A stretch of DNA of 64,000 nucleotides from Apostichopus japonicus (taxonomy: Eukaryota > Echinodermata > Holothuroidea > Aspidochirotida > Stichopodidae). Location of the stretch: positions 4,420,001-4,484,000 of the forward strand of contig NC_092572.1 of the NCBI RefSeq assembly GCF_037975245.1, in the 5' to 3' direction. Below, piece after piece: positions 7,637-64,000 of the stretch; the first letter of the stretch is position 1; each line of letters starts with the position of its first letter. The notes beneath the pieces were generated by a model. That model did not search any database and was not told where the DNA came from. It saw only the letters and a program-made list of their open reading frames with translations. Position numbers and translations under genes: made by a program.

Positions 7637-10613
7637 AGGGCAGGTCCAAGCTATTGTATCCCTACAAGCCAAATTTCAAACTTTACTGAAACACCCTAAA
7701 TGTGGTGTCATGTTAAAGCTGAATTATTGAAGTTTCAGATTTTAATAATTTTTTTGAATTTTTTTGCCTATTCAAACAATTACAGCCAGCTAATTTGCAT
7801 AAATTCAAATTGCAGTGTGACGTACGGGACATTTGGAATCCTATTTCGCTGCCAGCAATATGAACTTATTGAATATAAGTTATGTGGGACATGATACACC
7901 CTTCCTTCCAATAATTTTGACATATTATATGTGGGGGTTCATCAATTAAATATGCTAATTAGCTAGTGTCCAAATACTGATGTCCCGTACGTCACAATTT
8001 TCAGCACTTTTTTCAAGTTTTGATATGGAGGAACAATTTTTTTTTTGGTGATATTCTATAAAGTTCTGATTAAGAACATTGCTCAACAATATCCATCCCC
8101 AGAAAATTGAAATAATATTCACTGCAAATCTAATTATCAAATTTAAAAACGTGACGTACGGGACAAAATGTGACGTACGGGACATAGTGTGATGGAAACC
8201 CTGTATTTATACATAATAAACATGCATGGGCTCCATTGGGGACCTCTACTGGAAACCTTCCAATGCTTACAAGTTTATTTTGTTGAAAGCTGGTAGTTGC
8301 AACTTATAATCCCTGCATGCCTGAAGAGCACATCATGGCACCAAAAAAACTATTGACTGATGACCACCAACAGCCCGGGTGTTGTTTGACTATTGGAAAG
8401 TCAATTGTGCTTGTGGGGGATACAGAATCATCTACAATGCTATTCAACATTGACATTGAATGCATTCAATGTCCTCAAGGACGACTTCAAGAATGTTGAG
8501 TTTGCATTTCAAAATTTCGTAGGCCTATTGTGAAGTGTGACTATGATAATGTGCAACTATGTTCTTGTTCCTGAACTTAGATACTAGTAGACATTGAGAT
8601 TTTTAGTTACAAGTGTAGAGTTCGCTCGCCCAATTTTGCATAGGACAATCACTCATGAGTTTGTTCAATAACCAGTATTAGGTCTATAGAGTTTTCTTTG
8701 TTGTACTATGTAGTTTCATAGATGGACATTACATGGCATTACTGTGGACATTTTGGTATACAGGTACTTTGATTTTTGAATGGGATGAATCATGTTTCAA
8801 CTTCAGGGTCATTAGTGGGGAGTATGATACAGTGTTGTACAGTATATACCAATTTTTAACAGTTTTGCACCAAAACTTTGCATCTTGAATCATTTGTGGT
8901 CTAACAAAGCAAGAATTGATGTTCTGACTATTTGGTCTGGTAACCAGTATTAGGTCTTTAGAGTTTTCTTTGTTGTACTAGTTTCATAGATGGACATTAC
9001 GTGGCATTACTATGGACATTTTGGTATATTTTGAATGGGATGGATCATACTGTATTTCAACTTGAGGGTCAATAGTGGGGAGTATGATACAGTGTTGTAC
9101 AGTATACATACCAAAACAGTTTTGCACCAAAACTTTGCATCTTGAATCATTTGTGGTCTATTAAACAAAGCTAGAATTGATGTTATGAGTATTTGGTCTG
9201 GTAACCAGTATTAGGTCTATAGAGTTTTCTTTGTTGTACTAGTTTCATAGATTGACATTACGTGGCATTACTGTGGACATTTTGATATATTTGAATGGGA
9301 TGGATCATATTTCAACTTCAGGGTCAATAGTGGGGAGTATGATACAGTGTTGTACAGTATACATACCAAAACAGTTTTGCACCAAAACTTTGCATCTTGA
9401 ATCATTTGTGGTCTATTAAACAAAGCTAGAATTGATGTTATGAGTATTTGGTCTGGTAACCAGTATTAGGTCTATAGAGTTTTCTTTGTTGTACTAGTTT
9501 CATAGATGGACATTATGTGGCATTACTGTGGACATTTTGATATATTTGAATGGGATGGATCATATTTCAACTTCAGGGTCAATAGTGGGGAGTATGATAC
9601 AGTGTTGTACAGTATACATACCAAAACAGTTTTGCACCAAAACTTTGCATCTTGAATCATTTGTGGTCTATTAAACAAAGCTAGAATTGATGTTATGAGT
9701 ATTTGGTCTGGTAACCAGTATTAGGTCTATAGAGTTTTCTTTGTTGTACTAGTTTCATAGATGGACATTACGTGGCATTACTGTGGACATTTTGATATAT
9801 TTGAATGGGATGGATCATATTTCAACTTCAGGGTCAATAGCAGGGAGTATGATACAGTGTTGTACAGTATACATACCAAAACAGTTTTGCACCAAAACTT
9901 TGCATCGTGAATCATTTGTGGTCTAAAAAAGCTAGAATTAATGTTATGAGTACTTGATGTATGTGTAGAGTAGATAAATATTTTACGCATTCCATGTTTT
10001 ACGTGGAATGATCTCACAAGTACAGTCACTGCTCTTTTCCGTATCCCAGAAAGAAGGAAATATGGCATAAAATTACCAATGACATTGTTCTGGCATATCC
10101 AAATTAATGTTTTTATGTAGAAATCAGCTTGTTATGGTATATTCAGGAATGAAAATATGAGTTTTCATAGTCAATTTGTATATGGACAAATTGTCCCGTA
10201 CGTCACATGTCCCGTACGTCACAGGACAATTTTCATTTGTGTAACCACTGTACTGGAATGGCTTCATATTTTTTTTCTAATACGTTACAGCTTAGCCCTT
10301 GGAAGGTTAGGCTATTCACTAGTTATAACAGCTTGATCACTGCCCTCCTAATTTCAGAGCGATTTCAGCTTTGCTCTTTAGTAAAAAAAACACAAAATTC
10401 TCTGGTCCCGTACGTCACACTGTACATTAATTAAGATGGGACCTAATTAAAGCAAGTGTAGGAAATCTTCATGAGTTTGTAATAAAGAAGCAGCAATAAC
10501 AAATATGAAAACCTGAAAAAGTTTCTGGAAAATAGATTTTATATAACTTTTAGACAAATTTAAGTCTCTGAAATGTCCCGTACGTCACAGTTCAAATAGC
10601 TTGGACCTGCCCT
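7637..10613. mobile_element. 2,977-bp inverted-repeat DNA transposon with eight copies of a 16-nt motif
   Basis: The ends are perfect 19-bp inverted repeats, AGGGCAGGTCCAAGCTATT at 7637-7655 and its complement at 10595-10613. Inside, the motif TGTGACGTACGGGACA occurs at 7816-7831, 8151-8165 and 8169-8184 in forward orientation. It occurs in reverse at 7981-7996, 10192-10207, 10208-10223, 10405-10419 and 10574-10589. The motifs cluster in the outer thirds around a central satellite. Related sequences at about 10905 and 11575 look like empty targets and imply a 2-bp (TC) or 3-bp (TTC) target duplication. No transposase frame is visible, so it is non-autonomous. Dense subterminal motifs resemble transposase-binding arrays of CACTA-type elements, but the superfamily is unresolved. 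Confidence 0.75.
8671..9958 (+). repeat. five-unit satellite, period about 255-272 bp
   Basis: Units begin with ACCAGTATTAGGTCT at 8671, 8943, 9204, 9459 and 9714. The inner units are nearly identical; the first is the most diverged and the last lacks its end. The array sits in the middle of the inverted-repeat element at 7637-10613. Minus-strand frames here are repeat artefacts. Confidence 0.9.
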
Positions 10614-28148: not shown

Positions 28149-28218
28149 ACATATACATACATACATACATACATACATACATACATACATACATACATAC
28201 ATACATACATACATACAT

Positions 28219-28279
<61 letters not shown>

Positions 28280-28447
28280 TACATACATACATACATACAT
28301 ACATACATACATACATACATACATACATACATACATACATACATACATACATACATACATACATACATACATACATACATACATACATACATACATACAT
28401 ACATACATACATACATACATACATACATACATACATACATACATACA
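28149..28447. repeat. (CATA)n-(CA)n-(CATA)n microsatellite, about 300 bp
   Basis: An uninterrupted tetranucleotide run with a central CA dinucleotide block (about 28236-28275). All long Tyr-Ile-His-Thr and Cys-Met-Tyr-Val frames on both strands are translations of this repeat. Confidence 0.98.
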
Positions 28448-28512
28448 ATATCATATAAGCAAGCATAGGTCATTACATCGCATGGCATCGTGTACCGTAC
28501 GGTCCGTGAAAG

Positions 28513-29055
28513 TTGCGCAGTCATCTCTCTCAGTATTTCAGTATTTCTCGAGGTGTAAGACAGGGTGGTCCACTCAGTCCTTACCTCTTTATTTTATGTT
28601 CAGAATTTCTCACATTCATGGTTAAAACAAGCTGTCGTATCAAGGGTATATCTATTAATAACTCTGAAATAAGAATTTCACAATATGCCGATGATACTGT
28701 TTTATTTTTAGATGGTTCACGCGCTTCTCTTTTAGAGGTTGTAAACATTCTTAATAATTTCTCTGCCGCTTCGGGTTTAAAAGTTAATTTCAGCAAATCA
28801 TACTTTTTTCCATTGGGTGCTATGGCTTCAAGGGTTCCCTGGTATTTTCATGAGTATGGTTTTAATGTTAATCTTGGTCCCGTGAAATATCTTGGTGTCA
28901 CATTTACTACAAAGAATGAAGATTTCTTTTCGTTGAATTATCTTCCCAAATTATCCAGGCTCAAACAGTTACTTGGGATGTGGTCAAAACGTGACTTAAC
29001 ACCAACTGGTAAAATAACTATAATTAAGAGTTTGGCCATTTCACATGTATATATC
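28513..29055 (+). pseudogene. LINE reverse transcriptase fragment (L1/Tx1-like)
   Basis: A plus-strand frame carries the RT palm in order: SRGVRQGGPLSPYLF, then ISQYADDTVLFLDG with the catalytic Asp pair, then ASGLKVNFSKS, GPVKYLGVTF and TPTGKITIIKSLAISH. This is the central-to-thumb part of a non-LTR reverse transcriptase. The endonuclease and N-terminal RT are missing on the left, where the microsatellite begins. The right side stops exactly where the duplicated block starts. The remaining frame is intact, so the truncation is fairly young. Confidence 0.85.
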
Positions 29056-29093
29056 ATTCAAAACACACTGTTAGTAGATAGTTTTATCAGCTT

Positions 29094-29099
29094 TTTATT
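29094..29099 (-). terminator. polyadenylation signal of the secreted-peptide gene
   Basis: AATAAA on the minus strand about 340 bp past the stop codon, conserved in copy B (near 58894). It lies just inside the border of the duplicated block. Confidence 0.5.
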
Positions 29100-29435
29100 C
29101 AAATCCAATCATAAACATGATCTGAGGTCGTCAAATCAAATAGTGTGATACAATACGCACTTCCCACTACCATTAACCGTTGGAGTTTAAATTACGGGAA
29201 CATTGTTGACTGCATGCATGGTCTGTGTGATTTTTCGTTCACTTTCAGGTAGCTGGAAGTATGAAGAGATCACCATTTTGCAAGAGAGAAGAAAAAACAG
29301 ACAATTGTAACAGTTAAATATCTAACTCGATTACCAGTACTATAAGATGATAAGAAATAGACATGAAATCAATCATATAAGCCTATACACTGAATACACA
29401 TGGCACTTACTTAATAAGAACTTCCCTTGTATTAT

Positions 29436-31803
29436 TCAATAATAACGCATGTCGTAACCTGTTTAGCAAAATATGCTTGCTTTTATTAATAAGGGGAAGA
29501 CGGGGGTTGGGGATGTTGGAAGGTGGAGGATATTTGTTGAGTGAAGTTTTCATGTCGTTTACAAATATTAATTACTGCTTAAATCTCAATTGGATTCTTT
29601 CATATGTTTAATCGATACTTACCCTTAAGTCCTCCGCTGGTACAGGCAAGGGTCTTATCTCCGACAATAACCCTGTTAGAAAATGGTATGGCCCCTCCAT
29701 TCTCTAAAGCGCACCATAATTGGGCTTCTAATGGTTAAATGACAATAAATAATATATAGGAATCACAAAAGGACATTAAAGTACAAGAATATCATGTAAC
29801 ACAATCATGATAATTCCAACATTTTACTTTTATTTTATATGGTTGAGAGGGTTTGGATGGAGGTGGGAGCACAAATGACCACACTTTTATTTGAGTTGTT
29901 AGAAGTCGAGCCTTAAGATAAGTCGGGTCATGGAGAAATTGAATCTAAATGAATTCTCTTGCAATTTTATGTCGAACTAGGTCTTCCGAAATCGGATCGA
30001 GTCTTTTAGAGAATATATTGTTTAAAGACAAGTTACAAAGCAGTTTCGACAGATAATTTCACAAAACGTGTTTCGTAAGGAACAAGAAGGAGAAAATCCA
30101 CATTTACTGTTTATAATCAGTATAGTACAGTTCCTGTTATGACGGATATTTCGTGAATGCAATCTCCAAATCACTCCAAATACCCTTTAAACTTTCGTCT
30201 CACTTCATAGAAACTAATTTGTACGGACCATTCGAATATTTCGGAATTTTTAATGTACAATTAATAGTAAGGACCTACGTGATCGCTTTTGTTTAACTTA
30301 TGAAGAGCTAGAAAATGTGTTTAAAGTATGGTAGTTCCCATGCAGAGACGGGCTTAAAGTCAGGCATTGACATTCCTTCCGAAATACCATGTTCATTGGC
30401 TTAAACCAGGGTTGTCCAACCTTTTGCAGAGGAGGGTCACATGGAATGGTTATGATGAAGGAGGGGCCACATGAACCCTACGCTCTATCTTTTGCCCGAA
30501 GCCAAGGGCAACAAAATGTGAGCACTGCGCGCGGAGCGCACTGATTTATTTTCCTTCCTGATAAAACAGATGAATAAAGTACAGCCGCCCCGCCTCCCTC
30601 CTCCGCTGAGATTGCCACACAAACTGACCTGTATGCAGTTTTTTGGACCCAGAAGGCTCGAATGATTGATTATATAGCTTCAAATTGTTATCAATAAATC
30701 TGCTCACTAAAATTTCGCACCATCTCTGGCGGGCCGGACGCAACCCTGCGGCGGGCCGGACTGTGGCCCGCGGGCAGTAGGTTGGACAACCCTGGCTTAA
30801 ACTAATGAAATATGTCCCATGACAACAATGTATCACGGAAGCAATATATAAAAAAGGTAGTTATACTTTCAATGTAAACATTTTGTTACAAATGGGTGAA
30901 CAAATATGAGTGATGTTCCACTTTTAAGCCACGAGACCCATCCCCTCCCCAACCACCCCATAAAAACTCCGTACTCTGTTTTCTCACTAACACAAATATG
31001 TAAATACTTTGCGTTTCCGTCATCCGTAAAACTCCACCTTGCGATAACAGCGAACAACATTTGCACCACCTATAGGGTGTTAATCATTTTTTTTTTAGAT
31101 TCTTTTAACTACGATATGATAGGCAGATAAATATCAGTACTTTTCTATGTGCTTTTAACAGTAAACATGTAAGATTAATCGTGTACAATATTGTACAATA
31201 TTCTAATCATATTGATAAATGAGATAAATAATGACATTAGACACATTTGTTTTCGTAAATCCTTCTTTGTTTAACCCTTTCAACATCTGAGCTTAAACAA
31301 TACAATGATAATGACTACATAGTCTAACACTCAAGACCTACAAATCCTCCGATGCAACACAAAATGCAACCACGGGACCACATAAGACTTGGTCTAATAT
31401 GATATGTTTACAATGTAGTTCAAAATTTCAAATAACAAAGGTGCATATTGTCATCCAAACTTGCTCTATTGCATTATGTTAAGTTAAAGAAAACTTTCTA
31501 TTTAATATAATCTAATCAATGGATTAACAGAAACATTTATGTCTTCACTGAGCTGTCGACGTCGTCATTAATTCAGTTTTTGAGGGACATTCCAAAGATC
31601 TCGCATACTTTTAAGGTGAATATCTCAACAGCAACCTTTTCAATTTTATTTAATTTATCTTGCCTTGAATATGACATGTCCCTTTAACATTCTACATGTA
31701 AACGAGAACTGGAAGTTAGGAATGTAATTGTTGTGGCCATCTTACCTGAGAGTAGAGCACACAGTGCTACGATTAATAGGATGAGAAACACATTTGTAGC
31801 CAT
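29436..31803 (-). CDS. small secreted two-cysteine peptide, three coding exons (copy A)
   Basis: Spliced minus-strand gene, not matched to a known family. Exon 1 (31803-31746) encodes a 19-residue hydrophobic signal peptide with the run VFLILLIVALCALL and ends in a GTAAG donor after phase 1. Exon 2 (29727-29623, 105 bp) follows a TTAG acceptor, stays open and ends in GTAAGTAT, again phase 1. Exon 3 (29458-29436) follows AACAG and adds the C-terminal YDMRYY before TGA. The precursor is about 61 residues and the predicted mature peptide about 42, with WC near the start and one further Cys, enough for one disulfide. The model rests on matching phases, splice sites and an identical layout in copy B. 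A faint resemblance of exon 2 to half a DM9 repeat is too weak to name it. Confidence 0.7.
30407..30794. mobile_element. 388-bp hAT-like element with intact ends
   Basis: Ends are 16-bp inverted repeats starting CAGGGTTGTCCAACCT. The octamer GCTTAAAC flanks both sides (30399-30406 and 30795-30802). Copy B of the block has one GCTTAAAC and no element (near 59937), giving a natural empty site. GC-rich interior with no transposase. It lies in intron 1 of the secreted-peptide gene. Confidence 0.95.
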
Positions 31804-31831
31804 TTTATCGTTTTTACGTGTCGTTTTTTTT
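31746..31831 (-). other. signal-peptide exon with short 5' UTR
   Basis: A long pyrimidine tract ending TTCTAG precedes the exon on the minus strand, giving an exon start at 31831. A 28-bp leader (poly-A followed by ACGACACG) precedes the ATG at 31803. The strong acceptor means at least one non-coding exon lies upstream. The frame also stays open upstream to an earlier ATG, but that lies before the acceptor. Confidence 0.6.
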
Positions 31832-33591
31832 CTAGAAATAAGAACAAAAGCAAACAAAATTAACCACAAATCAAATGAAAATTACTAGGCGCTTCCAATC
31901 AAATAAAGCGAATAAACAATCACAAATCGCGTATCATCGGGACACATCCATGCCAAAGCATCACTTTTTGGAGGAATGATTGTTTTCCTAAGACAATTGT
32001 AAAAAGAACAATGTATTATTATATATTAAATTCCCGAGCTTCCTGGTTGACCAGCCACTGGACTGTAACCTCCCACGCACGCACGCACCCATACCCACAC
32101 GAACAACACTGTCCAACTTCCTGGTAAGGCTGATTTGAATAAAAACAAATAAAACTGTACTTACAAATATCTTAAATCCGAGAATCATTACTCTATCCTG
32201 TCAGAACTCTTGAATTACGACAGAAGTTGATTATTGAAAGTACTTAAGACCTAGGAAGGTTTACTCGCCATCGTAAATTGAAGATTACATTCTGTTGGGT
32301 CTCGTATATGTGACAATTACGGAAACATTATAGCCCACCGGTTTGATTTGAATGAAGCGAAATGTGAATGATACAGTGTGGAAAAATGCCATCCTACGCA
32401 TGTATGAGAGAACTGGAGTATCAACTTGTTATTTCAAAGTTTTTGATAGTAGATATATACATTAATTGCATAGAAACATATAAAAGCGAGAATCGTCATC
32501 GAATTGTGATATCATGATGCGATTCTTCATTTAATCTTTGTACAAGTCTCATTTATGTCAGTGAAGTCATAAACACTTTATTGGTAATATTATAGACATT
32601 ATGAAACTTTAGAAAACTTAAGCCGCGTCGCTCAGAAATTTTGACTTATTGGTGACTGCTCACTGTGCTTGATGGCTTGCATATACTTGTGTGACGAGTG
32701 ACGACATTACCGCACATCTAGACATAACAATATTTAAGAATTACTGAATTTGACAAACTATTGATATATCAGCATACATAACCGTTTACTTTACAAAGAG
32801 ACGGAAATTAATTAAGCACTTTAAGAATATTTTGAAGAAGGATGTTCAACGCCTTCGATCCGATATAATTGACATATGATGATACGTTAATGATACCAGA
32901 AAGTTCAATTTCATCATAATGTATGCACTTACTTCATGAAAACGTTACATCAAAATAAATGGACCTAATGGAAATAACTCCTCTACTTTAGTTCACGTTA
33001 ATAGATCGAAACGGGACATCTACTTGTCAACCGACAAAGCTTGGAGCATGTTAATAACACTAAAGAACAACATATTAAGGCGTAACGTGACATAATAAGT
33101 ATCTTTTCGTGAAAAGTTTTCAACTTGAGAAAAACTGACTGTTCGTGACATTTACCGATTTTTTTCAGCTTACTTTTTTTTTTATAGTTTACGTACCTTT
33201 ATGTGTTTATATACGATACTGCAGGCGCAAATGAGACCACATTGTATATGATATGATGAGACCACGTATAGAATTTGATGTATATGCGATGTAAATGTAA
33301 ATTGCAAGAACATTTTAGTGACTTATTTCGCTATTAAGCATCACGGGTTATGATACAATCTGCCCTAAATATGGCACAACGTTTCAGCATAATTTAAATG
33401 TTACATTTAAAAGATGCTAAGGATCATGCAAAGAATGCCAAAACCCAAATGGGTAGTAGAAGTCTCTACAATTTATGTAGAAGTAAACTTTCTTTAAATT
33501 GAAATTAAGATGAAAGACATTGACTGATCATGGTACAGCTGCAGTCTTTGAAATTCTTGCACCAACGGATATGATTTTACCTCCAACTTAC

Positions 33592-33660
33592 CTCTGATCT
33601 GGAAGTCTTCGCACTAGAAGTTTCTGGTAGAGAAATCATTTCAAACAGCTGCTTTTAAGG
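33592..33660 (-). promoter_or_regulatory. candidate first non-coding exon and promoter of the secreted-peptide gene
   Basis: A conserved donor (CAGAG followed by GTAAG) ends at 33592 on the minus strand. A TATA-like CCTTAAAAGC lies about 60 bp upstream (33651-33660). The same arrangement is kept in copy B (donor next to 62497). Transcription would run toward the signal-peptide exon. Inferred from sequence only; the exact start is unknown. Confidence 0.3.
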
Positions 33661-34353
33661 AATAGAACTACCAATGAGAGCTCTTTGAATTCCCATTGCC
33701 ACCAATCACAAGCTAGCACGCAACAAATTGAAGTATTCATCCACTAATATTTGAGCACATCAGGGTTTCGTGAAGCAGTAGACTAAGTGACGCAAACGCA
33801 AATAACAACAGAGAAATTGCTGGTATTAATTCAACTCTTCACTGGAATGAAAGCTAGAATTACAGATTGACATCTAGGCCTTGAAAAGAAAAGGACACGT
33901 GATGCGGAAAGGTTCACTTGGCAGATTCGTTGCACGTTCCACTGATGACGAAAACAACGTTCTACATAATATGCGGCATTGTGCCAAATCATAATATTTC
34001 TAATAAATCATCTCACCATAATTCTTTCTTCTTACTTCCTAGCCTGGTAAGTCATACCATAGAAACATTCCAATATGTAAACTGCTGAATATCTCATTGC
34101 ATTTGTGTGTTTTCTACAGTATTTTGTGAGTAAGAAAGTGTCCCATCAATTTGGGGGTTCTACTCCTTCTTTCCCGGATCCGCCGCACCTGTTAATGTCC
34201 CTTTCACCTGCTCATGTGAAATATATATAGTGTGAGAATGTAACACATTTTTCCTTTGAAGTCTTGGAAACGTTTAAAGAAGTTTACAACGTAACCGAGT
34301 CAATGCTAATAGAAACAATTAGTAATTTATCAAACACTTTTAGTCTCAAGCAA

Positions 34354-35092
34354 CAGGGACGTAGCCAAGGGGGGGGGGTAGGGGAAGCAACTTCTCCCCC
34401 CTTTCAGTATCGAAAAAATGTTAACAAATGTTTTTTTTTTCTCTTTAGCATGGTACTTTTTCAGTGCTCTTTTGAACTTGAATACTTGTCAGCTCAGTTT
34501 CTTCGATTATAATCGTAGTAACATTCAGGCCTACTGATTCAGCTACTTAGTTTGGCAGATGTAATCAGCTAAATTTAGACAGTTGGACACTGCGTAATAA
34601 AATACATATTGCCTACCTAACCGCACTCGATGGGGTGTTACAGACCGTTTACACAACGACGTCGACAACGTTCGTTCTCATCCTTTGTATGATTCGTCCT
34701 AAGTTGTTGCACGAACAGTATGTTATGAAGCTAAGCTAGCAATCGTACTTGATACGCACTTCCTATCAATAATTATTACACTGCTAATACACTGCGATAA
34801 CGATATTTGTGTTTAGGCCACTGCACATCTGGCTGTCTTACAAAATATGAAAGTTTATATTGTCCATCAGTTCGCCAAATGTATTTAAGTCCATATATTG
34901 GACAATAAACAAGAATCAACAACTTTAAAAGAGCACTATGTTTGCTTTCTGATATATGTTAAAGAGTTCAAACGGGGAACAAAATCTGCTGATCATATGA
35001 TATCATATGATAATGATGAAACTGGCAAAACATTGCACCAGAGCGCATCTAAGGACCTTCAATTGTTCAAAATATCTCAAAGAGAAGGGCAA
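34354..35092. mobile_element. GACGTAGCC-family repeat, right end lost (hAT-like)
   Basis: Begins CAGGGACGTAGCCAAGG with a following G run, and matches 63274-64000 and, inverted, the complete copy at 40802-41668. Homology to the complete copy stops near AATATCTCAAAG. The frames across it are shared by all copies but show no protein motif. Confidence 0.7.
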
Positions 35093-35390
35093 TTTTCTCA
35101 TGCTGTTCCTGGGAGACCTAAATTGAATGGTTCTAAATTTGGCTTAATTCACTCAATGTTTGCACTACATGTACTTCCATTCATGATCTTTAACATGCAA
35201 GCCACAATAAAAAAAACATGATTGATAGCATATCACAAAAGATGTTCTCAAATTGCTTTATTGTTGTTGGCACTTTTCCTGAAAGAGAACGGATTGATAT
35301 AGACTTTAATAGGAGTGAGCAACCTATATATATATAAATATATATATGTATGTATAAAAAAATAAACCCAAAAGTCGAAACATCGAATCG

Positions 35391-35557
35391 ACTACACTGG
35401 AATTACGACCTTCCTTACCAGTTTCGAACCTCTATACATATAATCAGTGGTTAGGGTATCCGCATATACTGCGGGAGTCCCGGATCGAATCCAGGTGGAG
35501 ACTGGAAGTTTATTCACTGTTCTGGATTCTACAACTCATTACGATTTCAATTATATA

Positions 35558-35560
<3 letters not shown>
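35391..35560 (+). mobile_element. TA-tailed tRNA-SINE, left arm of an inverted pair
   Basis: Carries GGAATTACGACCTTCCTTAC, part of the tRNA-like head (GTGGTTAGGGTATCCGC, then CCGGATCGAATCC), the body TCACTGTTCTGGATT and ACTCATTACGATT, then a (TA)n tail. The A-box side is partly deleted relative to the copy at 50445-50690. Confidence 0.7.

Positions 35561-35611
<51 letters not shown>
35561..35611. repeat. (TA)n microsatellite between inverted SINEs
   Basis: About 50 bp of alternating TA forming the shared tail region of two SINEs facing each other. Confidence 0.9.
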
Positions 35612-35614
<3 letters not shown>

Positions 35615-35800
35615 GAAAATCGTAATGAGTTGGAAAATCAAGAACAGTGAAAAAAACTTCCAGCCTCCAACGGGATTCGAACCACGGGCCTTGCGCTCTG
35701 TACGCGGACACCCTAACCATTAGGCTATGGACGCTGATTGTATGTCCAGAGGTTCGAAACCGGTAAGGAAGGTCGTAATTCCACTGTAGGCGTTTGTCAC
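35612..35800 (-). mobile_element. TA-tailed tRNA-SINE, right arm of the inverted pair
   Basis: Minus-strand copy with A box TAGCCTAATGG, B box GGTTCGAATCC and body TTTTTTTCACTGTTCTTGAT, ending at (TA)n. The outer side contains the same GGAATTACGACCTTCC sequence as the left arm. A further (TA)n lies at 35811-35850. Confidence 0.75.
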
Positions 35801-35809
35801 TTTATTTTG

Positions 35810-35851
<42 letters not shown>

Positions 35852-36306
35852 CATAATCATCACTCAAAAGATCCACCATAATATTCTTCTAAGGGAGTTC
35901 TTTTCCTCTTCTGTGCCAAAGCAGTCTGTCTCTGTTTGGAACCAAGAAAAACAAAACATGCTTGATCATAGAGTAACACACAGTGAAAATGTGGATTGTA
36001 TATTTGGTTTTGCCTTCAATCATTACATGCCATATTTGTAAGGCTTTCTTTATAATATGACATAGTACTTAAGCACTTTTCGTGCAACTGAAACAGAGAA
36101 AGTGGAAACACATTCTCCTGATCATATATGACCTTCGACCTATGCCAAAGAAAAAATGAGTCTATACAACCTTCCTCAATAATTTCTATTTGCTTTTGTT
36201 TCTTTCATTAACCTGTTTATAACTTCATGTAATTAACATCACTACTATCATCGCACTGCCGCCACTGCTTATGTTTGTTCTCCACCTCTATTGGATCAGA
36301 ACATAT

Positions 36307-36480
36307 TGTAGAGTACTTGTTGTTTCAAATAAGGACACAGTTCAAGGCATTCGTTTACAGTTGAATACAGTACGGATAACTCGTTTTATTGATAACTTCT
36401 GGTAACAGACTTCGACGCCATGTTTACTCTGACTCTCTGTCGAACGCCAAGTGTGCAACACATTTTATTACGACACTACA
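36307..36480 (-). repeat. 3' LTR of the Gypsy element
   Basis: 174 bp, TG...CA ends, one mismatch to the 5' LTR (CAGTACGG versus CAATACGG). Confidence 0.95.
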
Positions 36481-36711
36481 ATCCTCCTAACTTGTGGATT
36501 GAACTCAACAATACAAATGTTTGAATTGCTTTAAAGTATCAGAATAGGAACTGCATAAATAGCTTTTGTCGGTTACTGAAACAGTAATACTCTAGTATGT
36601 CAAATCTCAAGTCTAACAATATGGTAAATCTCAAAATGAACAATATGGTTAGTATATTGAACACATTGTGTCACTTGGAATGTCACAAAATGTGTTACAC
36701 AATAGGTTGCT

Positions 36712-39700
36712 TCAACTATGCAATACCATGAATACTGTCTGCTTATCAATTGTGCATATGTTCATGAAATATTCGCTATTGAAAGGTGGTCCGTTATCAG
36801 TACGGACTACTTCTGGAATACCGAACAATGCAAATATGCGATCCAAATGTGGGATAACCGCTTTACTAGAAGTGGATGTGAGAATTTCAACCACTGGGAA
36901 TCTGCTATAATCGTCGATGATGACAAGAAGATGCTCTCCGGTTGGAAGATCTGAGAAGTCTATGCTGACTTCTTTCCAAGGATGTGTTGGAAGTGCTGAC
37001 ATTTGGATAGGTTCACGTGTAGTTGAACTGCTTGTTGCTTGGCATGGAATACATTGACTGATCTTTTCCTCCACACGCTTGTCTATTCCAGGAAACCAAA
37101 CTTTTTCGCGAATCAGCTGTTTTGTGCGAACGACACCTTGGTGTCCTTGGTGTGCGATGGTGATGATGCGATCGCGAAGGATTGACGGAATCACAATTCT
37201 GTGATCACGGAGTAGCACTTTTCCATCTTTCGCTACGCTGAGCTCATTCTTTACGTTTTTGAAGCACTGCAGCTCTGGTGTAATGAAGTACCAGCTATTC
37301 CTTTCGACAGCTTTGATGCATGCTTGCAAGACAGGATCTGATGTGGTCGCTGCAACTATCTCATCCATGCTGATCGATTTGGGCACTGCGTTTTCAACGA
37401 TGAAGTTGATGTGCTCTTCTGCGTTTGGCTCAACGGTTGATGTGCTAGGTAACGGATGTCGCGACAAATAGTCGGCCGGGTTGGTTGCACCTGGTTGGTA
37501 TTCTAAAGAAAAATCATACTGCTGAAGGTGCAGCATCCATCTTTCTATTCTCGCTGGTGGAGATGAATTGGATCTGTTGAACAATGGCACTAGTGGCTTA
37601 TGGTCTGTGATGACCGTGAACTTGCTGCCATACAAGTACAGGTAGAAGTGTGTGATTCCCCACGTTACTGCCAGGGCTTCACGCTCGGTTTGTGAATACC
37701 GCTTCTCGACAGCTGTAAGTGAACGACTCGCTAATGCTACGATTTTGTTGCTTCGGTCACTGCCTTGTACTAGCATAGCACATAGCCCTACGGGACTAGC
37801 ATCTACAACGACTGTGGAATAAAGACGCGAGTCGAAGTATGCCATATGACAGTGCTGTGCTATTGCATGCTTGATGTCATTGAAGGATTTGGCATGACGC
37901 TCTTCCCATGACCATGGAACGCTCTGTCTGGTCAGATCACGAAGTGGTTCAGATAGTGATGCAAGGTTTGGAATGAATCTTGCACAGTAGTTTGCTAACC
38001 CAAGAAAGCTTCGGACTTCTTCCCGATTGCTAGGAGGTGGTGCCTCGATCAACGATTGGACTTTCGTGGGACTTGGTGATACGCCTGATGAGCTGAAGAT
38101 ATGCCCAAAGAATTCAACCGAAGATTTGTTGAACTCGCATTTATCGCCATTGAGAGTTAGGCTCTTCTCTCTTAGACGTTGCATGCACTTCACTAGCCGC
38201 TCGTTGTGTTCTTGTTGATTCTTGGCATATACCAATATGTCGTCGCTGATGTTAATCACGCCTTGAAGACCTGCCAGGGCTGACTGTATCAGATTTTGGA
38301 ACTGTTCCGCTCCGCTATTCACTCCGAAATTCAATCTCTTATACTGATACAAGCCAACATGGGTGGAGAAAACAGTGAGATAGCGTGATGCCTCGTCTAA
38401 TTCGATTTGGTGATATCCACTGTTTAGATCCAGCTTGGTGAATACTGTTGCCCCATTCAGCTTAGCTAATATGTCGTCAATGGTTGGAGTGACGTGCCGC
38501 TCTCTCGCGATAGCTTTGCTCACAGCTCGCATATCAACACAAATCCTGATTTTACCTGGTTGCTTTGGTTTAGGCACAACTCGAATTGGAGAGACCCATG
38601 GTGTAGGCGTACTATGCACAGGCTCGATGATATCCAATTCTTGTAAGCGTTTCAGTTCAGCTTCGACATGTTGTCTGACGTGGAAAGGTATCCTGCGATG
38701 CGGCTGAGTAACAGGAGTGACGGACTGATCCACGTGTAGTTTGCATGTGACGCCTGCTAGCTTGCCTAGTCCAACGAACCGATCACTGAATTCGTCGATG
38801 ACCGACGGTGCTGCATGAACATTGTATGTAACAGCGATCATGTGGAGCTCTTTCGCAGTGTTCAGACGTAGCAGAGTGGGACCACTGTGCTCCGTAATGA
38901 AGAATATATCTCTTAGCATCTGCGCTTTGTGACGTACAAGCAGAGAGATTTTTCCAAGAACCTCAATGGGACTGTTGGCACCAAATGCATAGACTTGTTT
39001 GCCTGTAGGTTCGAGTAGTGATTGTTCTGTACAGATTGTGTTCAGAGTTTCTCGACTCATTATGTTCACTGACGTACCTGTGTCAATGACAGCTGTAGTC
39101 TTAACATCATTGATAATCACGGATACCTTGAGTAGTTGATTACTCTCATCTGATGGACCTATGGCAAATAGATAGTCCTCGTTATTTGACTCACCTTGCA
39201 TTGCTTGGAGAGATGGTTGTGAGTGTGAGTGTTGTGTTGTCTGTTCTACAAGGTTAACCTCTGCTTGTTGTTTCAGCTTGGTTTTGCACACTTTTGCAAA
39301 GTGATTTTGCTTTTTGCAGAACAAGCAGGTTTTTCCTTGTGCTGGACATGGATGATCAGTATGAGGGTATTTGTCACCACAGTTACGGCAGATCTGTGAC
39401 TTTGAGTGCTGCTGTTGTTTGAATTTAGCAGGTTTCTGACGGTTTTGACGTTCGTGCTTGACGTAGTGCACGTCAGAAATGTCACTCATAGTGCTCTTTG
39501 CAATCTCACTGGCATGCGCAGTGGCTGCTTCAGCTGCTCGGACAATTGTGATGGCTTGAGTTAGGGTCAAGTGTGCTTCACGAAGGAGGCGTTGACGAAT
39601 GTTAGCATTTTTCATGCCTAGAATTATCCTGTCCCTTATGAGAGATTCTGTCAATGTGTCAAATTCACATGTTTCTGCTAATGACTTGAGAGATGTAACA

Positions 39701-40005
39701 AAGCTCTCAAACGATTCACCCTCTCTTTGTACTCTCGTGTTAAATATGTACCGTTCATATGTAGTATTAGCATGTCCCTTACAATGCACTTCAAACTGAT
39801 CGATTACCTTCTGATATGTCTTTGCGTCAGCTTCGTCAGCCCACGTAAACGTGTTGTATAGGTCGACCGCTGGCTTGTCTCGTGTGGCTATCCCCGTTGC
39901 AAGTTCGAAGTTTGTGAATGCCTGTTTAAATTTCTTGAAGCTTGTTGCAAGACTTGACGAATCTATCTCGAACGGTGGAGGCGGTGGAATCGTGAATGTG
40001 GCCAT
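36712..40005 (-). CDS. Gypsy gag-pol polyprotein, integrase truncated
   Basis: A single 1,097-residue frame fuses gag and pol. Order: gag with retroviral-type zinc knuckles at about residues 204-243 (CRNCGD, CLFCKK), aspartic protease VIDTGTSVN near 307, and RT with RICVDMRAV near 488 and the catalytic ISDDIL near 588. RNase H follows (VVVDAS near 735, TDHKPL near 801), then an integrase HHCC region (HQGHQG...CIPCQA near 955) and the first two acidic residues of the DDE triad (DFSDL near 1016, RTDNGPPF near 1068). The frame ends about 20 residues later, before the glutamate, and unrelated sequence leads to the LTR. Everything up to the break is intact, so protease, RT and RNase H could be made. 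It encodes no envelope. Confidence 0.93.
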   Translation of the reverse strand: MATFTIPPPPPFEIDSSSLATSFKKFKQAFTNFELATGIATRDKPAVDLYNTFTWADEADAKTYQKVIDQFEVHCKGHANTTYERYIFNTRVQREGESFESFVTSLKSLAETCEFDTLTESLIRDRIILGMKNANIRQRLLREAHLTLTQAITIVRAAEAATAHASEIAKSTMSDISDVHYVKHERQNRQKPAKFKQQQHSKSQICRNCGDKYPHTDHPCPAQGKTCLFCKKQNHFAKVCKTKLKQQAEVNLVEQTTQHSHSQPSLQAMQGESNNEDYLFAIGPSDESNQLLKVSVIINDVKTTAVIDTGTSVNIMSRETLNTICTEQSLLEPTGKQVYAFGANSPIEVLGKISLLVRHKAQMLRDIFFITEHSGPTLLRLNTAKELHMIAVTYNVHAAPSVIDEFSDRFVGLGKLAGVTCKLHVDQSVTPVTQPHRRIPFHVRQHVEAELKRLQELDIIEPVHSTPTPWVSPIRVVPKPKQPGKIRICVDMRAVSKAIARERHVTPTIDDILAKLNGATVFTKLDLNSGYHQIELDEASRYLTVFSTHVGLYQYKRLNFGVNSGAEQFQNLIQSALAGLQGVINISDDILVYAKNQQEHNERLVKCMQRLREKSLTLNGDKCEFNKSSVEFFGHIFSSSGVSPSPTKVQSLIEAPPPSNREEVRSFLGLANYCARFIPNLASLSEPLRDLTRQSVPWSWEERHAKSFNDIKHAIAQHCHMAYFDSRLYSTVVVDASPVGLCAMLVQGSDRSNKIVALASRSLTAVEKRYSQTEREALAVTWGITHFYLYLYGSKFTVITDHKPLVPLFNRSNSSPPARIERWMLHLQQYDFSLEYQPGATNPADYLSRHPLPSTSTVEPNAEEHINFIVENAVPKSISMDEIVAATTSDPVLQACIKAVERNSWYFITPELQCFKNVKNELSVAKDGKVLLRDHRIVIPSILRDRIITIAHQGHQGVVRTKQLIREKVWFPGIDKRVEEKISQCIPCQATSSSTTREPIQMSALPTHPWKEVSIDFSDLPTGEHLLVIIDDYSRFPVVEILTSTSSKAVIPHLDRIFALFGIPEVVRTDNGPPFNSEYFMNICTIDKQTVFMVLHS

Positions 40006-40015
40006 CGCAAATTAT

Positions 40016-40027: not shown

Positions 40028-40201
40028 TGTAGAGTACTTGTTGTTTCAAATAAGGACACAGTTCAAGGCATTCGTTTACAGTTGAATACAATACGGATAA
40101 CTCGTTTTATTGATAACTTCTGGTAACAGACTTCGACGCCATGTTTACTCTGACTCTCTGTCGAACGCCAAGTGTGCAACACATTTTATTACGACACTAC
40201 A
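40028..40201 (-). repeat. 5' LTR of the Gypsy element
   Basis: 174 bp; carries the promoter of the element on the minus strand by analogy with the family. Followed by the 5-bp target duplication CATAT. Confidence 0.95.
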
Positions 40202-50444: not shown

Positions 50445-50670
50445 AACGCCTACAGTGGAATTACGACCTTCCTTACCGGTTTCGAACCTCTGGACATACA
50501 ATCAGCGTCCATAGCCTAGTGGTTAGGGTGTCCGCGTACAGAGCGGAAGGCCCTTGGTTCGAATCCCGGTGGAGGCTGAAAGTTTTTTCACTGTTCTTGA
50601 TTTTCCAACTCATTACGATTTTCATTTATATATATTCATTTGCCTTTGTCGTGTACCTCCATTGCATTGC

Positions 50671-57905: not shown

Positions 57906-58839
57906 GTATATAGCCTATATGCCTGTGCCGTAACTAAATCTTTCCACAATTCCTGTTGATTTATTAATATTAAGGTTGCTCAAACTTCTTGAATATTAGC
58001 TCTTACTTACCATGCAGTACGCCGATACTTGAAGATATATGAATTCGATATTAACATACGATCTCATTAACCGTTGTTAAATCTCGTTGAGTATTTAATC
58101 CAGCATTCCATTCTTAGGGATCATACACAGTTTCCCTTTACAATAACTTTCACTTTCAATTGGTTTATTTTTTTCACTTTTGTCAGTATTCATTAATGCT
58201 GAGTGTTTATTATTCATTCAACTTATGACGCGCCTGTAAATAACACACTGCAATATATTACTCTCGAACTCCAGCTACCAACAGAGTAGGTTTACTGATC
58301 GCCCAGTTCTTAATCAGAGCTGCAATTTTACTCAAATCAAAGGGTTCCACTATCAGCCCGATACGTCATATTTGAAGCAAACTTCGTCCGTGTCGATGCA
58401 TTTCATTATCCCAACGCTGTGAAGGCTTTTAAAGACGATAGTAGCTTATAATAACTGATTATTAATTATTAATAAAGTAACCTATTTTAGCATTTTGCTG
58501 TTAATCAATAAAATCAATTTTAAGAAGACCAAAACAGTTTTTTTTTTACGAAACACATTTCCCGAAGCATTACACAAATTCGACAAACATCCAAATATGA
58601 TCATGTACCTCAAGATATGTCAAGCACGAGCAATCCCCGTATTTAGCTATGGGCATGTTTGTGGAGGGAGCGGGCCTGGAAGTTGTTTGGAAACCTGTCA
58701 GCAGAATCTATCCGGGCAATGACATTACTTGTTGGTCAGCTAATGTAAGGCCACGTGCAATCACAAAGCCGTGGTGCTAGCTGTCAGACATAAGCATTCC
58801 GTATCTATGATTACATCTGAATGTCACGTGTATAGATCA
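57901..58839. other. 0.9 kb flank of block copy B, no gene recognised
   Basis: Unlike the sequence left of block copy A, which is a LINE fragment. The frame at 58495-58722 has no motif or splice support. Confidence 0.4.
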
Positions 58840-59215
58840 TTGAAAACACACTGTTAGTAGATAGTTTTATCAGCTTTATTCAAATCCAATCATAAACATG
58901 ATCAGAGGTCGTCAAATCAAATAGTGTGATACAATACGCACTTCCCACTACCATTAACCGTTGGAGTTTAAATAACGAGAACATTGTTCCCTGCATGCAT
59001 GGTCTGTATGATTTTTCGTTCACTTTTAGATAGCTGGAAGTATGAAGAGATCGCCATTTTGCAAGAGAGAAGAAAAACAGACAATTGTAACAGTTAAATA
59101 TCTAACTCGATTACCGGTGCTATCAGATGATAAGAAATAGACATGAAAACAAACATATAAGCCTATACACTGAATACACATGGCACTTACTTAATAAGAA
59201 CTTCTCTTGTATTAT

Positions 59216-60690
59216 TCAGTAATAACGCATGTCGTAACCTGTTTAGCAAAATATGCTTGCTTTTATTAATAAGGGGAAGACGGGGGGGGGGTGGGGATGT
59301 TGGAAGGTGGAGGATATTGGTTGAGTGAAGTTTTCATGTTGTTTACAAATATTAATTACTGCTTAAATCTCAATTGGATTCTTCCATATGTTAATCGATA
59401 CTTACCCGTAAGACCTGTGCTGGAACACGCATAGCGCAGATTTCCGACCAAAACAACGTCATTATTCGGTATGGCCCCTCCAGCCTCTAAAGCGCACCAG
59501 TAGACGGCTTCTAAAGGTTAAATTACAATAAATAATATACATGAATCACAAAAGGAGACAAGTTACAAAGCAATTTTACAGATAATTTCACAAAACGTGT
59601 TTCGTAAGGAACATGAAGGAGAAAATCCACCTTTACTGTTTATCATAAGTATATATATTATAGTACCTGTTATGACGGATATTTCTTGAATGCAATCTCC
59701 AAGTCAATCCAAATACCCTTTAAACTTTCGTCTCACTTCATAGAAACTAATTTGTACGGACCATTCGAATATTTCGGAATTCTTAATGTACAATAAATAG
59801 TATGGCGCTACGTGAACGCTTTTGTATAACTTATGAAGAGCTAGAAAATATGATTAAAGTATTGTAGTTCCCATGCAGAGACGGGCTTAAAGTCAGGCAT
59901 CGACAGTCCTTCCGAAATACCATGTCCATTGGCTTAAACTAATGAAATATGTCCCATGACAATATGTATCACGGAAGTAATATATAAAAAATGAAGTTAT
60001 ACTTTCAATGTAAACATTTTGTTACAAATGGGTGAACAAATATGAATGATGTTCCACTTTTAGGCCACGAGACCCATCCCCTCCCCAACCACCCCATAAA
60101 AACTATGTACTGTGTTTTCTCACTAACACAAATATGTAAACACTTTGCGTTTCCGTGATCCGTGATACTCCATCTTGCGATAACAGCGAACAACATTTGC
60201 AACACCTATAGTGTGTTAATCATTTTTTTTTCAGATTCTTTTAAACTATGATATGATAGGCAAAATGTAATTCTTCAAAATTTCAAATAACAAAGGTGCA
60301 TATTGTCATTCAAACTTGCTCTGTTGCATTATGTTAAGTTAAAGAAAACGTTTTAGTTAATTTTATCTAATCAATGGATTAACAGAAACATTTATGTCTT
60401 CACCGAGCTTCCGACGTCGTCATTAATTCAGTTTTTAAGGGACATTCCAAAGATCTAGCATACTTTTAAGGTGAATATCTCAACAGCAACTTTTTCAATT
60501 TTATTTCATTCATCTTGCATTGAATATGACATGTCCCTTTAACATTCTACATGTTAACGAGAATATACAACTGGAAGTTAGGTATGTAATTGTTGTGGCC
60601 ATCTTACCTGAGAGTAGAGCACACAGTGCTACGATTAATAGGATGAGAAACACATTTGTAGCCGTTTTTACGTGTCGTTTTTTTTCTAGA
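59216..60690 (-). pseudogene. secreted two-cysteine peptide gene, copy B, start codon lost
   Basis: Same exon layout as copy A. The signal exon from 60608 matches copy A except that an 8-bp deletion removes the ATG, leaving ACG. Exon 2 is 59510-59406, open and phase 1 at both ends. Exon 3 is 59238-59216, ending YDMRYY and TGA. Exon 2 keeps the WCALE and AC landmarks, but 15 of 34 codons change the amino acid relative to copy A and only 3 are silent. An in-frame ATG at 60707 lies upstream of the normal splice acceptor and would need an unspliced or different leader. It is either a recent pseudogene or uses another start; splice sites and frame are otherwise intact. Confidence 0.65.
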
Positions 60691-63273
60691 AATAAGAACA
60701 AAAGCAAACAAAATTAACCACAAATCAAATGAAAATTACTAGGCGCTTCCAATCAAATAAAGCGAATAAACAATCACAAAATATGACATCGCGTTTCATC
60801 GGGAGACATCCATGCGAAAGCATCACTTTTTGGAGGAATGATTGTTTTCCTAAGACAATTGTAAAAAGAACAATGTATTATTATATATTAAGTTCCCGAG
60901 CTTCCTGGTTGACCAGCCACTGGACTGTAACCTCCCACGCACGCACGCACCCATACCCACACGAACAACACTGTCCAACTTCCTGGTAAGGCTGTTTTGA
61001 ATAAAAACAAATAAAAATGTATCGAATAATGTCATGTAAGACATACTGCCATTTACTAATTACAAATATCTTCAATCCGAGAATCATTACTCTATCCTGC
61101 CAGAACTCTTGAATTACGACAGAAGTTGATTATTGAAAGTACTTAAGCCCTAGGAAGGTTTACTCGCCATCGTAAATTGAAGATTACATTCTGTTGGGTC
61201 TCGTATATGTGACCCTTACGGAAACATTATAGCCCACCGGTTTGATTTGAATGAAGCGAAATGTGAATGATACAGTGTGGAAAAATGCCATCCTACGCAT
61301 GTATGAGAGAACTGGAGTATCAACTTGTTATTTCAAAGTTTTTGATAGTAGATATATACATTAATTGCATAGAAACATATAAAAGCGAGAATCGTCATCG
61401 AATTGTGATATCATGATGCGATTCTTCATTCAATCTTTGTACAAGTCTCACCTATGTCATTGAAGTCATAAACACTTTATTGGTAATATTATAGACATTA
61501 TGAAATTTTAGAAAACTTTAGCCGCGTCGCTCAGAAATTTTGACTTATTGGTGACTGCTCACTGTACTTGATGGCTTGCACATACTTGTTTGACGAGTGA
61601 CGACATTACCGCACATCTAGACATAACACTATTTAAGAATTACTGAATTTGACAAACTATTGATATATCAGCATAAATAACCGTTTACTTTACAAAGACA
61701 CGGAAATTAATTAAGCACTTTAAGAATATTTTGAAGAAGGATGTTCAACGCCTTCGATCCGATATAATTGACATATGATGATACGTTAATGATACCAGAA
61801 AGTTCAATTTCATCATAATGTATGTACTTACTTCATGAAAACGTTACATCAAAATAAATGGACCTAATGGAAATAACTCCTCTACTTTAGTTCACGTTAA
61901 TAGATCGAAACGGGACATCTACTTGTCAACCGACAAAGCTTGGAGCAGGTTAATAACACTAAAGAACAACATATTAAGGCGTAACGTGACATAATAAGTA
62001 TCTTTTCGTGAAAAGTTTTCAACTTGAGAAAAACTGACTGTTCGTGACATTTACCGATTTTTTTCAGCTTACTTTTTTTTTTTATAGTTTACGTACCTTT
62101 ATGTGTTTATATACGATACTGCAGGCGCAAATGAGATCTCCTTGTACTTGATATGATGAGAACACGTATAGAATATGATGTATATGCGATGTAAATGTAA
62201 ATTGCAAGAAAATCAAATTTCAGTGAATTATTCTGCTACTAAGCATCACGGGTTATGATACAATCTGCCCTAAATATGGTACAACGTTTCAGCATAATTT
62301 AAATGTTACACTTAAAAGATGCTAAGGATCATGCAAAGAATGCCAAAACCCAATGGGTAGTAGACGTCTCTACTATTTATGTAGAAATAAACTTTCTTTA
62401 AATTTAAATTAAGATGAAAGACATTGACTGATCACCGGTACAGCTGCAGTCTTTGAAATTCTTGCACCAACGGATATGATTTAACCTCCACCTTACCTCT
62501 GATCTGGAAGTCTTCGCACTGGAAGTTTCTGGTAGAGAAATCATTTCAAACAGCTGCTTTTAAGGAATAGAACCACCAATAAGATCTCTTTGAATTCCCA
62601 TTGCCACCAATCACAAGCTAGCACGCAACAAATTGAAGTAATCATCCTCTAGTATTTGAGCACAGCAGGGTTTCTTGAAGCAGTAGACTAAGTGACGCCA
62701 ACGCAAATAACAACAGAGAAATTTGCTGGTATTAATTCAACTATTCATTGGAATGAAAGCTTGAATTACAGATTGACATCTAGGCCTTGAAAAGAAAAGG
62801 GCACGTGATGCGGAAAGATTCACTTGGCAGATTCTTTGCACTTTCCACTGATGACGAAAACAACGTTCTACTTAATATGTAAACCGCTGAATGTCGCATT
62901 GTGCCAAATCACAATATTTCTAATAAATCATCTCACCATAATTCTTTCTTCTTACTTCCTAGCCTGGTAAGTCATACCACAGAAAAATTCCAATATGTAA
63001 ACTGCTGAATGTCTCATTGCATTTGTGTGTTTTCTATGGTATTTTGTGAGTAAGAAAGTGTCACATCAGTTTGGGGGTTCTACTCCTTCTTTCCCGGATC
63101 CGCCGCACCTGTTAATGTCCCTTTCACCTGCTCATGTGAAATATATATAGTGTAAGAATGTAACACATTTTTCCCTTGATGTCCTGGAAACATTTAAAGA
63201 AGTTTACAACGTAACCAAGTCAATGTTAATAGAAACAATTAGAAATGTATCAAACTCTTTTAGTCTCAAGCAA

Positions 63274-64000
63274 CAGGGACGTAGCCAGGTGGGGGGGGGG
63301 GGCAGGGGGAGCAACTTCTCCCCCTTTCAGTATAATAACAATGTTAAAAACTGTTGTTTTTTCAGCATGGTATTTTTGGCAGTGCGCTTTTGATCTTGAA
63401 TACTCGTCAGCTCAGTTTATTCGATCATAATCGTAGTAACATTCAGGCCTACTGATTCAGCTACTAACTTAGTTTGGCAGATGCAATTAGCTAAATTTAT
63501 CCTTTAGCTTATTACAAGCCTACAGTTGGACACTGCGTAATAAAATACATATTGCCTACCTAACCGCACTCGATGGAGTGTCACAAATCGTATGCACAAC
63601 GACGTCGACAACGTTCGTTCTCATCCTTTCTATGTTTCATCCTAAGTTGTTGCACGAACAGCATGTTATGGAGCTAAGCTAGCAATCGTACTTGATACGC
63701 ACTTCCTATAAATAATTATTACACTGCTAGTACACTGCAATAACGATATTTGTGTTTAGACCACTGCACATCTGGCTGTCTTACAAAATATGAAAGTTTA
63801 TATTGTCCATCAGTTATTGGACAATAAACAAGAATCAAAAATGGTAAAAGAGCACTATGTTTGCTTTCTGATATAATATGTAAAAGAATTCAAACGGGGG
63901 AAAAAATCTGCTGACCAAATGATATCATATGATAATGATGAAACTGGCAAAACATTGCACCAGATCGCATCTAAGGACCTTCAATTGTTCAAAATTCTCA
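63274..64000. mobile_element. GACGTAGCC-family repeat in block copy B
   Basis: Starts CAGGGACGTAGCCAGG with a long G run; matches 34354-35092 and, inverted, 40802-41668. Continues beyond the window. Confidence 0.7.

Follow-up and report, generated by a model that had tools for sequence, protein, structure and literature searches.

A Duplicated Sea Cucumber Gene for a Putative Secreted Peptide in Which One 105-bp Exon Has Diverged Strongly

How do two neighboring copies of a small gene come to be nearly alike in their introns and strongly different in a single exon? The question is raised by a gene pair of the sea cucumber Apostichopus japonicus, found in a contiguous 64-kb stretch of DNA (the window) that an initial annotation had read as holding a duplicated gene for a diversifying secreted peptide.

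The Duplicated Block

Both gene copies, A and B, lie on the minus strand within a segmental duplication and are about 30 kb apart. Self-blastn delimited the copy A block to 29038–35079 and the copy B block to 58821–64000 (neither with an assigned strand), the right end of the latter being the end of the window. The pieces of the copy A block match 58821–64000 with 91–94% identity per piece and in shared orientation, and the similarity breaks off sharply at 29038 and 58821. In a base-level alignment of 29038–34360 with 58821–63300, the copies differ at 46 of 1698 aligned bases in intron 0 (97.3% identical), 73 of 1085 in intron 1 (93.3%) and 4 of 163 in intron 2 (97.5%). Substitution divergence outside exon 2 amounts to ∼4–5%. 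The introns had been judged by eye to be about 94–98% alike, which is close to the 93.3–97.5% identity of the aligned bases but overlooks several large indels, copy-specific insertions among them. By the exon coordinates intron 1 is 2018 nt long in copy A and 1097 nt in copy B. Part of this difference is a 388-bp non-autonomous element in copy A (30407–30794, no strand assigned) with inverted ends CAGGGTTGTCC and an 8-bp target duplication GCTTAAAC; copy B has no insert at this site. We take the element to be hAT-like.

Other elements were seen in the surrounding DNA. An open reading frame at 36712–40011 encodes reverse transcriptase and RNase H domains (searched with the stretch 37215–40011) and is flanked by 174-bp direct repeats of 99% identity (36307–36480 and 40028–40201), and is probably part of a young LTR retrotransposon. 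A second open reading frame (28510–29148) with a partial reverse transcriptase domain overlaps the copy A block at its left end. Rfam matches to tRNA at 35662–35734 and 50505–50577 lie inside mutually similar repeats, perhaps tRNA-derived short interspersed elements. Tandem arrays occur at 8768–9956 (255-bp unit, 4.7 copies, 94% matches) and, ∼600 bp to the left of the copy A block, at 28153–28447 (ATAC tetranucleotide, 74.2 copies).

Gene Structure of the Two Copies

The exons described below all belong to the minus strand. In copy A, exon 1 (31746–31831) has its ATG at 31803–31801, encodes the putative signal peptide MATNVFLILLIVALCALLS and ends in a phase 1 donor, its coding part being 58 nt (31803 to 31746). 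The mature peptide exon, exon 2 (EAQLWCALENGGAIPFSNRVIVGDKTLACTSGGLK, 29623–29727), is 105 nt long and differs from copy B at 31 of these 105 sites. The coding part of the predicted exon 3 (29411–29458) runs for 23 nt from 29458 to 29436 and reads GYDMRYY-stop, with a GTAAGT donor at 29410. A terminal exon 4 (29094–29252; AATAAA at 29099–29094) is predicted from its similarity to the terminal exon of the copy B model, and skipping of exon 3 would on the same grounds give copy A the ending ..GLKAT-stop. Upstream lies a putative exon 0 (33592–33639, coordinates from the first ATG), which has a strong internal donor, GAG/GTAAGT (the slash marks the splice site), and would carry a short upstream open reading frame. 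When it is spliced from this inner donor, the frame of its ATG stops before the ATG of exon 1. The inner donor GAG/GTAAG is strong and present in both copies, while the upstream region of copy A has an in-frame stop and lacks the GT donor that the public model of copy B uses.

That public model emerged when the copy A protein was used to query a protein database. There was a single match (one hit of one candidate), an 'uncharacterized protein isoform X2' of A. japonicus of 99 aa (here P0001). P0001 can be rebuilt exactly by joining 62544–62436, 60685–60608, 59510–59406 and 59033 onward: residues 1–36 are encoded at 62544–62437 (100% identity), and exons 1 and 2 and the final 'AI' supply the rest. 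By this exact match the window is DNA of A. japonicus or of a source that looks the same at this locus. Copy B accordingly has an exon 0 that is coding in the public model (MISLPETSSAKTSRSEVRWRLNHIRWCKNFKDCSCT, 62436–62544, 100% to P0001), an exon 1 (60608–60685) whose signal-like segment is identical to that of copy A apart from the lost start codon, and a 105-nt exon 2 (EAVYWCALEAGGAIPNNDVVLVGNLRYACSSTGLT, 59406–59510). In exon 4 (58875–59033; AATAAA at 58880–58875) G/CTATCTAA reads as the ..AI-stop of isoform X2. A pattern scan for splice-compatible endings gave six sites below exon 2 (the listing leaves out 29623 to 40000), and among these only AG/CTATCTAA at 59033 is near, 372 intron bases below copy B exon 2. 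Isoform X2 skips exon 3 of copy B (59191–59238; coding part 59238–59216 including the stop, GYDMRYY-stop). Since a GTAAGT donor directly follows exon 3 in both copies, this exon is presumably a cassette.

The upstream exon and the further terminal exon with its AATAAA belong to the copy B gene. The three-exon layout proposed initially, with all introns in phase 1, is thus right for exons 1–3, which have GT..AG introns in phase 1 in both copies, but incomplete, as the public model adds an exon upstream (62544–62436) and another downstream (from 59033). The last exon of that layout, exon 3, does differ at one silent position only (1 of 23 sites).

The start of the signal peptide also required correction. 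A start codon followed by identical signal bases had been noted for both copies, and the bases after the start are indeed identical, but copy B has no ATG: it carries an 8-bp gap relative to the start-codon region of copy A, and ACG (60665–60663) stands where copy A has ATG. In the contiguous DNA upstream of this ACG a stop is reached in the same frame with no intervening ATG. The identity of exon 1 is in itself unremarkable, being part of a substitution-free run of 203 nt, while intron 0 contains such runs of 215 and 187 nt (gaps ignored).

Translation of copy B needs either the upstream ATG, by way of the extra exon, or non-AUG initiation. As read from the sequence, three features of copy B in combination bring the upstream ATG into frame: the missing upstream stop, the additional donor and the 8-bp gap. 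The ACG, with A at −3 and G at +4, presumably has a context that permits initiation and could be an alternative start. The most hydrophobic segment of P0001 lies at residues 50–61, unlike a classical N-terminal signal peptide. Since its start codon is lost, copy B need not encode a working secreted peptide, and secretion of its product may be poor or absent. Copy A, with its own ATG in place, is the more promising of the two as the source of a working peptide.

Divergence of Exon 2

Exon 2 differs between the copies at 31 of 105 sites, with no indel and no stop in either copy, compared with 2.5–6.7% of sites in the aligned introns. Its description as hypervariable is therefore justified. Among 4273 windows of 105 alignment columns, the maximum of 31 differences was reached in windows overlapping exon 2, and windows wholly outside it had at most 15 (mean 4.4). 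Chance was rejected as the cause of the exon 2 difference on this comparison. Our recount of the 35 codons (including the split GAA) agrees with the count of 15 replacement and 3 silent codons made at first, and leaves 17 unchanged; 20 of 35 residues are kept. The W and both C are among them, as had been stated. The codons are bimodal, since 17 are unchanged and 11 carry two or three changes. These 11 are among the 15 codons with changed residues, are close to saturated and are interspersed with kept codons.

When 31 random changes were introduced into exon 2, 31% of the simulations remained free of stops, so the absence of stops alone is weak evidence. The joint outcome of no stop with W, C and C kept was obtained in 1.8% of the trials, and at least 20 residues were kept in 2.8%.

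The initial annotation had proposed that dN/dS of exon 2 be compared with intron divergence. The Nei–Gojobori method gave 27 replacement differences in 79.8 sites and 4 silent differences in 25.2 sites, corresponding to a dN of 0.45, a dS of 0.18 and a ratio of 2.5. That dN exceeds dS is borderline (bootstrap P(dN ≤ dS) 0.04, Fisher P 0.07), and two copies are too few for strong claims on selection. Relative to intron divergence (0.04–0.06) dN is raised 7.0-fold (introns 1–2) or 10.5-fold (introns 0–2), and the replacement excess over the intron rate is pronounced (Fisher P 3e-12 or less). Silent divergence is elevated too, with dS 2.8–4.2 times that of the introns (P 0.065 for introns 1–2, 0.019 for introns 0–2). 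Of the substitutions in exon 2, 7 are transitions and 24 transversions; elsewhere in the alignment, with the coding sequence of exons 1 and 3 excluded, the numbers are 83 and 99 (Fisher P 0.018).

The 3′ edge of the diverged tract is sharp. The last difference lies 2 nt inside the exon and is followed by one substitution in 59 aligned intron bases, where 16% would be expected if the exon tract continued (rejected, P 4e-4); a 1-nt gap lies 14 nt beyond the exon end. On the 5′ side, where 4 of 46 intron bases differ, neither the exon rate nor the intron rate is rejected (P 0.12 in each case).

Properties of the Peptide and Database Comparison

A signal-like hydrophobic segment is encoded on its own exon and conserved between the copies, the start ATG being present in copy A only. 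Signal peptidase cleavage follows the −3,−1 rule, by which the signal would be cut after SEA and the mature peptide would start with QLW... in copy A and VYW... in copy B. The first residue that differs between the copies is the first one after this predicted site. With the exon 3 ending, the mature peptide has 40 residues and two cysteines, and its charged residues are K+R 4 and D+E 3 in copy A and K+R 2 and D+E 3 in copy B. Neither peptide is strongly cationic, and this speaks against a classical antimicrobial peptide of the cationic type.

Pfam gave no family for four sequences even at E-values up to 10 (HMMER filters apply), nor for P0001 at E up to 0.001. A loose resemblance to DM9-type (DUF3421) domains in a W..GG..P...V..G spacing was seen by eye, and this candidate was dropped, as no Pfam match was obtained even at E 10 with the same filters. 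The protein alignment search found no relative besides P0001 among 236 candidates, a lengthened query made of repeated mature parts found nothing at E up to 10 among the 8000 best word-sharing candidates scored, and the copy A protein itself was not returned by any of the three protein searches. These searches reach proteins near the query length that share exact five-residue words, and distant relatives of the peptide may lie outside this reach.

A search of the PDB with the mature part of copy B only brought up no convincing relative. It yielded 18 sequences with E-values of at most 10, the lowest being 0.048; by name, sixteen are antibodies or nanobodies, one is '026' and one a protein glutaminase. 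A relation to immunoglobulins was rejected, as the matches shown center on ends of the 'AVYYCA' type and copy A has no AVY. The structure model of exon 2, built from two sequences, was too poor for a fold search (pLDDT 62.8, pTM 0.29). Literature searches on the family, its setting and its letters gave no entry about this gene among the open-access matches listed (for two of the searches, 15 of 55 and 8 of 265), and a scan of viral contigs gave 17 stretches that fit a pattern, none of which was confirmed. Within the 64-kb window the gene is represented by copies A and B only, and no paralogue that could have donated exon 2 was found there.

Comparison with Known Systems

Conotoxin genes and the phospholipase A2 genes of snake venoms combine conserved signals and introns with a fast-changing mature region between fixed cysteines. 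They concern other proteins, tissues and cysteine numbers, and a venom role is not suggested for the sea cucumber gene. The contrast between coding and non-coding parts of phospholipase A2 genes is mentioned in PMC2474615.

The viper three-finger toxins offer a parallel known as ASSET, accelerated segment switch in exons (PMC2474615, PMC2711939). As described in these papers, the toxin genes have near-identical signal peptides, highly similar introns, distinct exon segments and retained cysteines, by a mechanism that, according to the authors, still awaits explanation. The sea cucumber pair is alike in its conserved signal and introns, its divergent exon and its kept cysteines. The toxins, however, have mature parts of 64–68 residues with ten cysteines and a known fold, as opposed to ∼40 residues, two cysteines and two copies here. 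A three-finger toxin would have the three-finger fold and ten cysteines, the number in viper members (PMC2474615); the mature part of our peptide has two cysteines. This comparison is by description, with sequences compared through the Pfam, PDB and protein searches only.

The SpTransformer (185/333) genes of sea urchins are also echinoderm genes with a short leader exon, a separate exon for the rest, a diverse mature part and clustered copies (PMC1988830). According to the same paper they have two exons, with an exon 2 of 771–1431 nt built as a mosaic of elements, whereas the sea cucumber gene has more than three short exons and an exon 2 of 105 nt; the two-exon structure with a long element-mosaic exon 2 is thus absent here. 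Across the 185/333 family the intron is described as more than three times more diverse than exon 2, opposite to the sea cucumber pair, although within a set of genes that share one exon pattern, conservation of the intron equals or exceeds that of the exons (PMC1988830). By analogy, the gene would work like a diversifying secreted peptide in its evolutionary pattern, although the features by which the named sequence families are recognized were not found in it.

Origin of the Exon 2 Difference

The initial reading as a diversifying secreted peptide is borne out where it concerns the confinement of change to the mature exon, the replacements far above the introns and the retention of constrained codons. 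It is weakened by the borderline dN > dS, a dS above the introns and the lost start of copy B. The explanation we favor, with about an even chance of being correct, is a secreted peptide with two cysteines that is restricted to this lineage, in which selection diversifies the exposed residues and whose exon 2 versions probably predate the block. Diversifying selection with a contribution of older exon 2 versions is favored because of the saturated codons, the elevated dS and the sharp 3′ boundary taken together.

The main rival would need little or no positive selection after the duplication: exon 2 of one copy was replaced from an older, diverged paralogue by gene conversion or recombination, so that the block is young and exon 2 old. 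We regard this as possible but somewhat unlikely. It would account for the dS of 0.18 above the introns (P 0.02 for introns 0–2, 0.065 for introns 1–2), for the excess of transversions and for the two or three hits in 11 of the 15 changed-residue codons, and the 46 bases on the 5′ side with their 4 differences are compatible with an older tract (P 0.12 either way). Against it, the 3′ edge of the exchange would have to coincide nearly perfectly with the end of exon 2 (1 substitution in 59 bases, P 4e-4), and the 64-kb window holds no donor paralogue. Another rival starts from old duplicates whose introns, exon 1 and flanks are homogenized by conversion while selection rejects conversion in exon 2. 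Such concerted evolution would fit the substitution-free runs of 215, 203 and 187 nt beside more diverged stretches of the same block; but with several large indels, one of them the 388-bp intron 1 element of copy A, and with intron 1 diverged by 6.7%, the homogenization would have to be patchy, and we consider it improbable.

The loss of the copy B start codon through the 8-bp gap might instead mark copy B as a dying pseudogene and the pair as a case of ordinary decay. Decay leaves a 30% difference in exon 2 beside introns at 2.5–6.7% unexplained, and copy B retains its reading frame, its W and both C and its splice sites, and a public isoform model exists, which makes this very improbable as an account of the pair; the present copy B can be a pseudogene without this accounting for the exon 2 pattern. 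Least probable of all, in our judgement, is an assembly artefact in which two haplotypes of one locus stand side by side, as diverged alleles rather than paralogues. A divergence of ∼4–5% outside exon 2 might presumably suit the alleles of a very heterozygous animal, but the similarity ends sharply at 29038 and 58821, the copies are ∼30 kb apart, and large insertions occur in one copy only. On this reading exon 2 would be an exon that is hypervariable among alleles, and no less interesting.

On the favored explanation, selection on a secreted peptide, the gene product would be a signal peptide followed by ∼40 residues with one cysteine pair, and exon 2, which encodes nearly all of the mature peptide, would be the sole strongly diverged part. 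The kept residues W-C-A-L-E, G-G-A-I-P, V-x-V-G, A-C and G-L would hold a disulfide-tied scaffold, and the changed residues between them would be exposed contact positions diversified by selection. Because silent divergence also exceeds that of the introns, part of the exon 2 difference is probably older than the block, with older versions carried along or exchanged between copies. The pattern is what one would expect of a diversifying family if two of its members, separated for a long time, were compared within a duplicated block of more recent origin. A peptide released outside the cell for recognition or defense would be the likeliest role, judging from these sequence features.

A bolder extension, which we consider rather doubtful, is that A. 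japonicus has a family of secreted recognition peptides with two cysteines, confined to its taxon and so far overlooked, whose copies exchange or hyper-diversify one 105-bp exon within near-exact splice-site bounds. Copy B would then add a second step, in which the variable exon gained a new N-terminus through loss of the signal start and use of an upstream coding exon.

As it stands the finding concerns two copies of one orphan gene, and an exon-confined pattern is already known from fast-evolving defense, mating and venom peptides. The public gene model (isoform X2) hides the loss of the start codon in copy B. Because the contrast sits between two neighboring copies, the pair is a clean case for separating selection on point mutations from exon exchange, which the ASSET papers left open. 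If the pattern extends to more copies, echinoderms would provide a case in which diversification of a very small peptide is limited to one exon and the introns serve as a built-in neutral yardstick.
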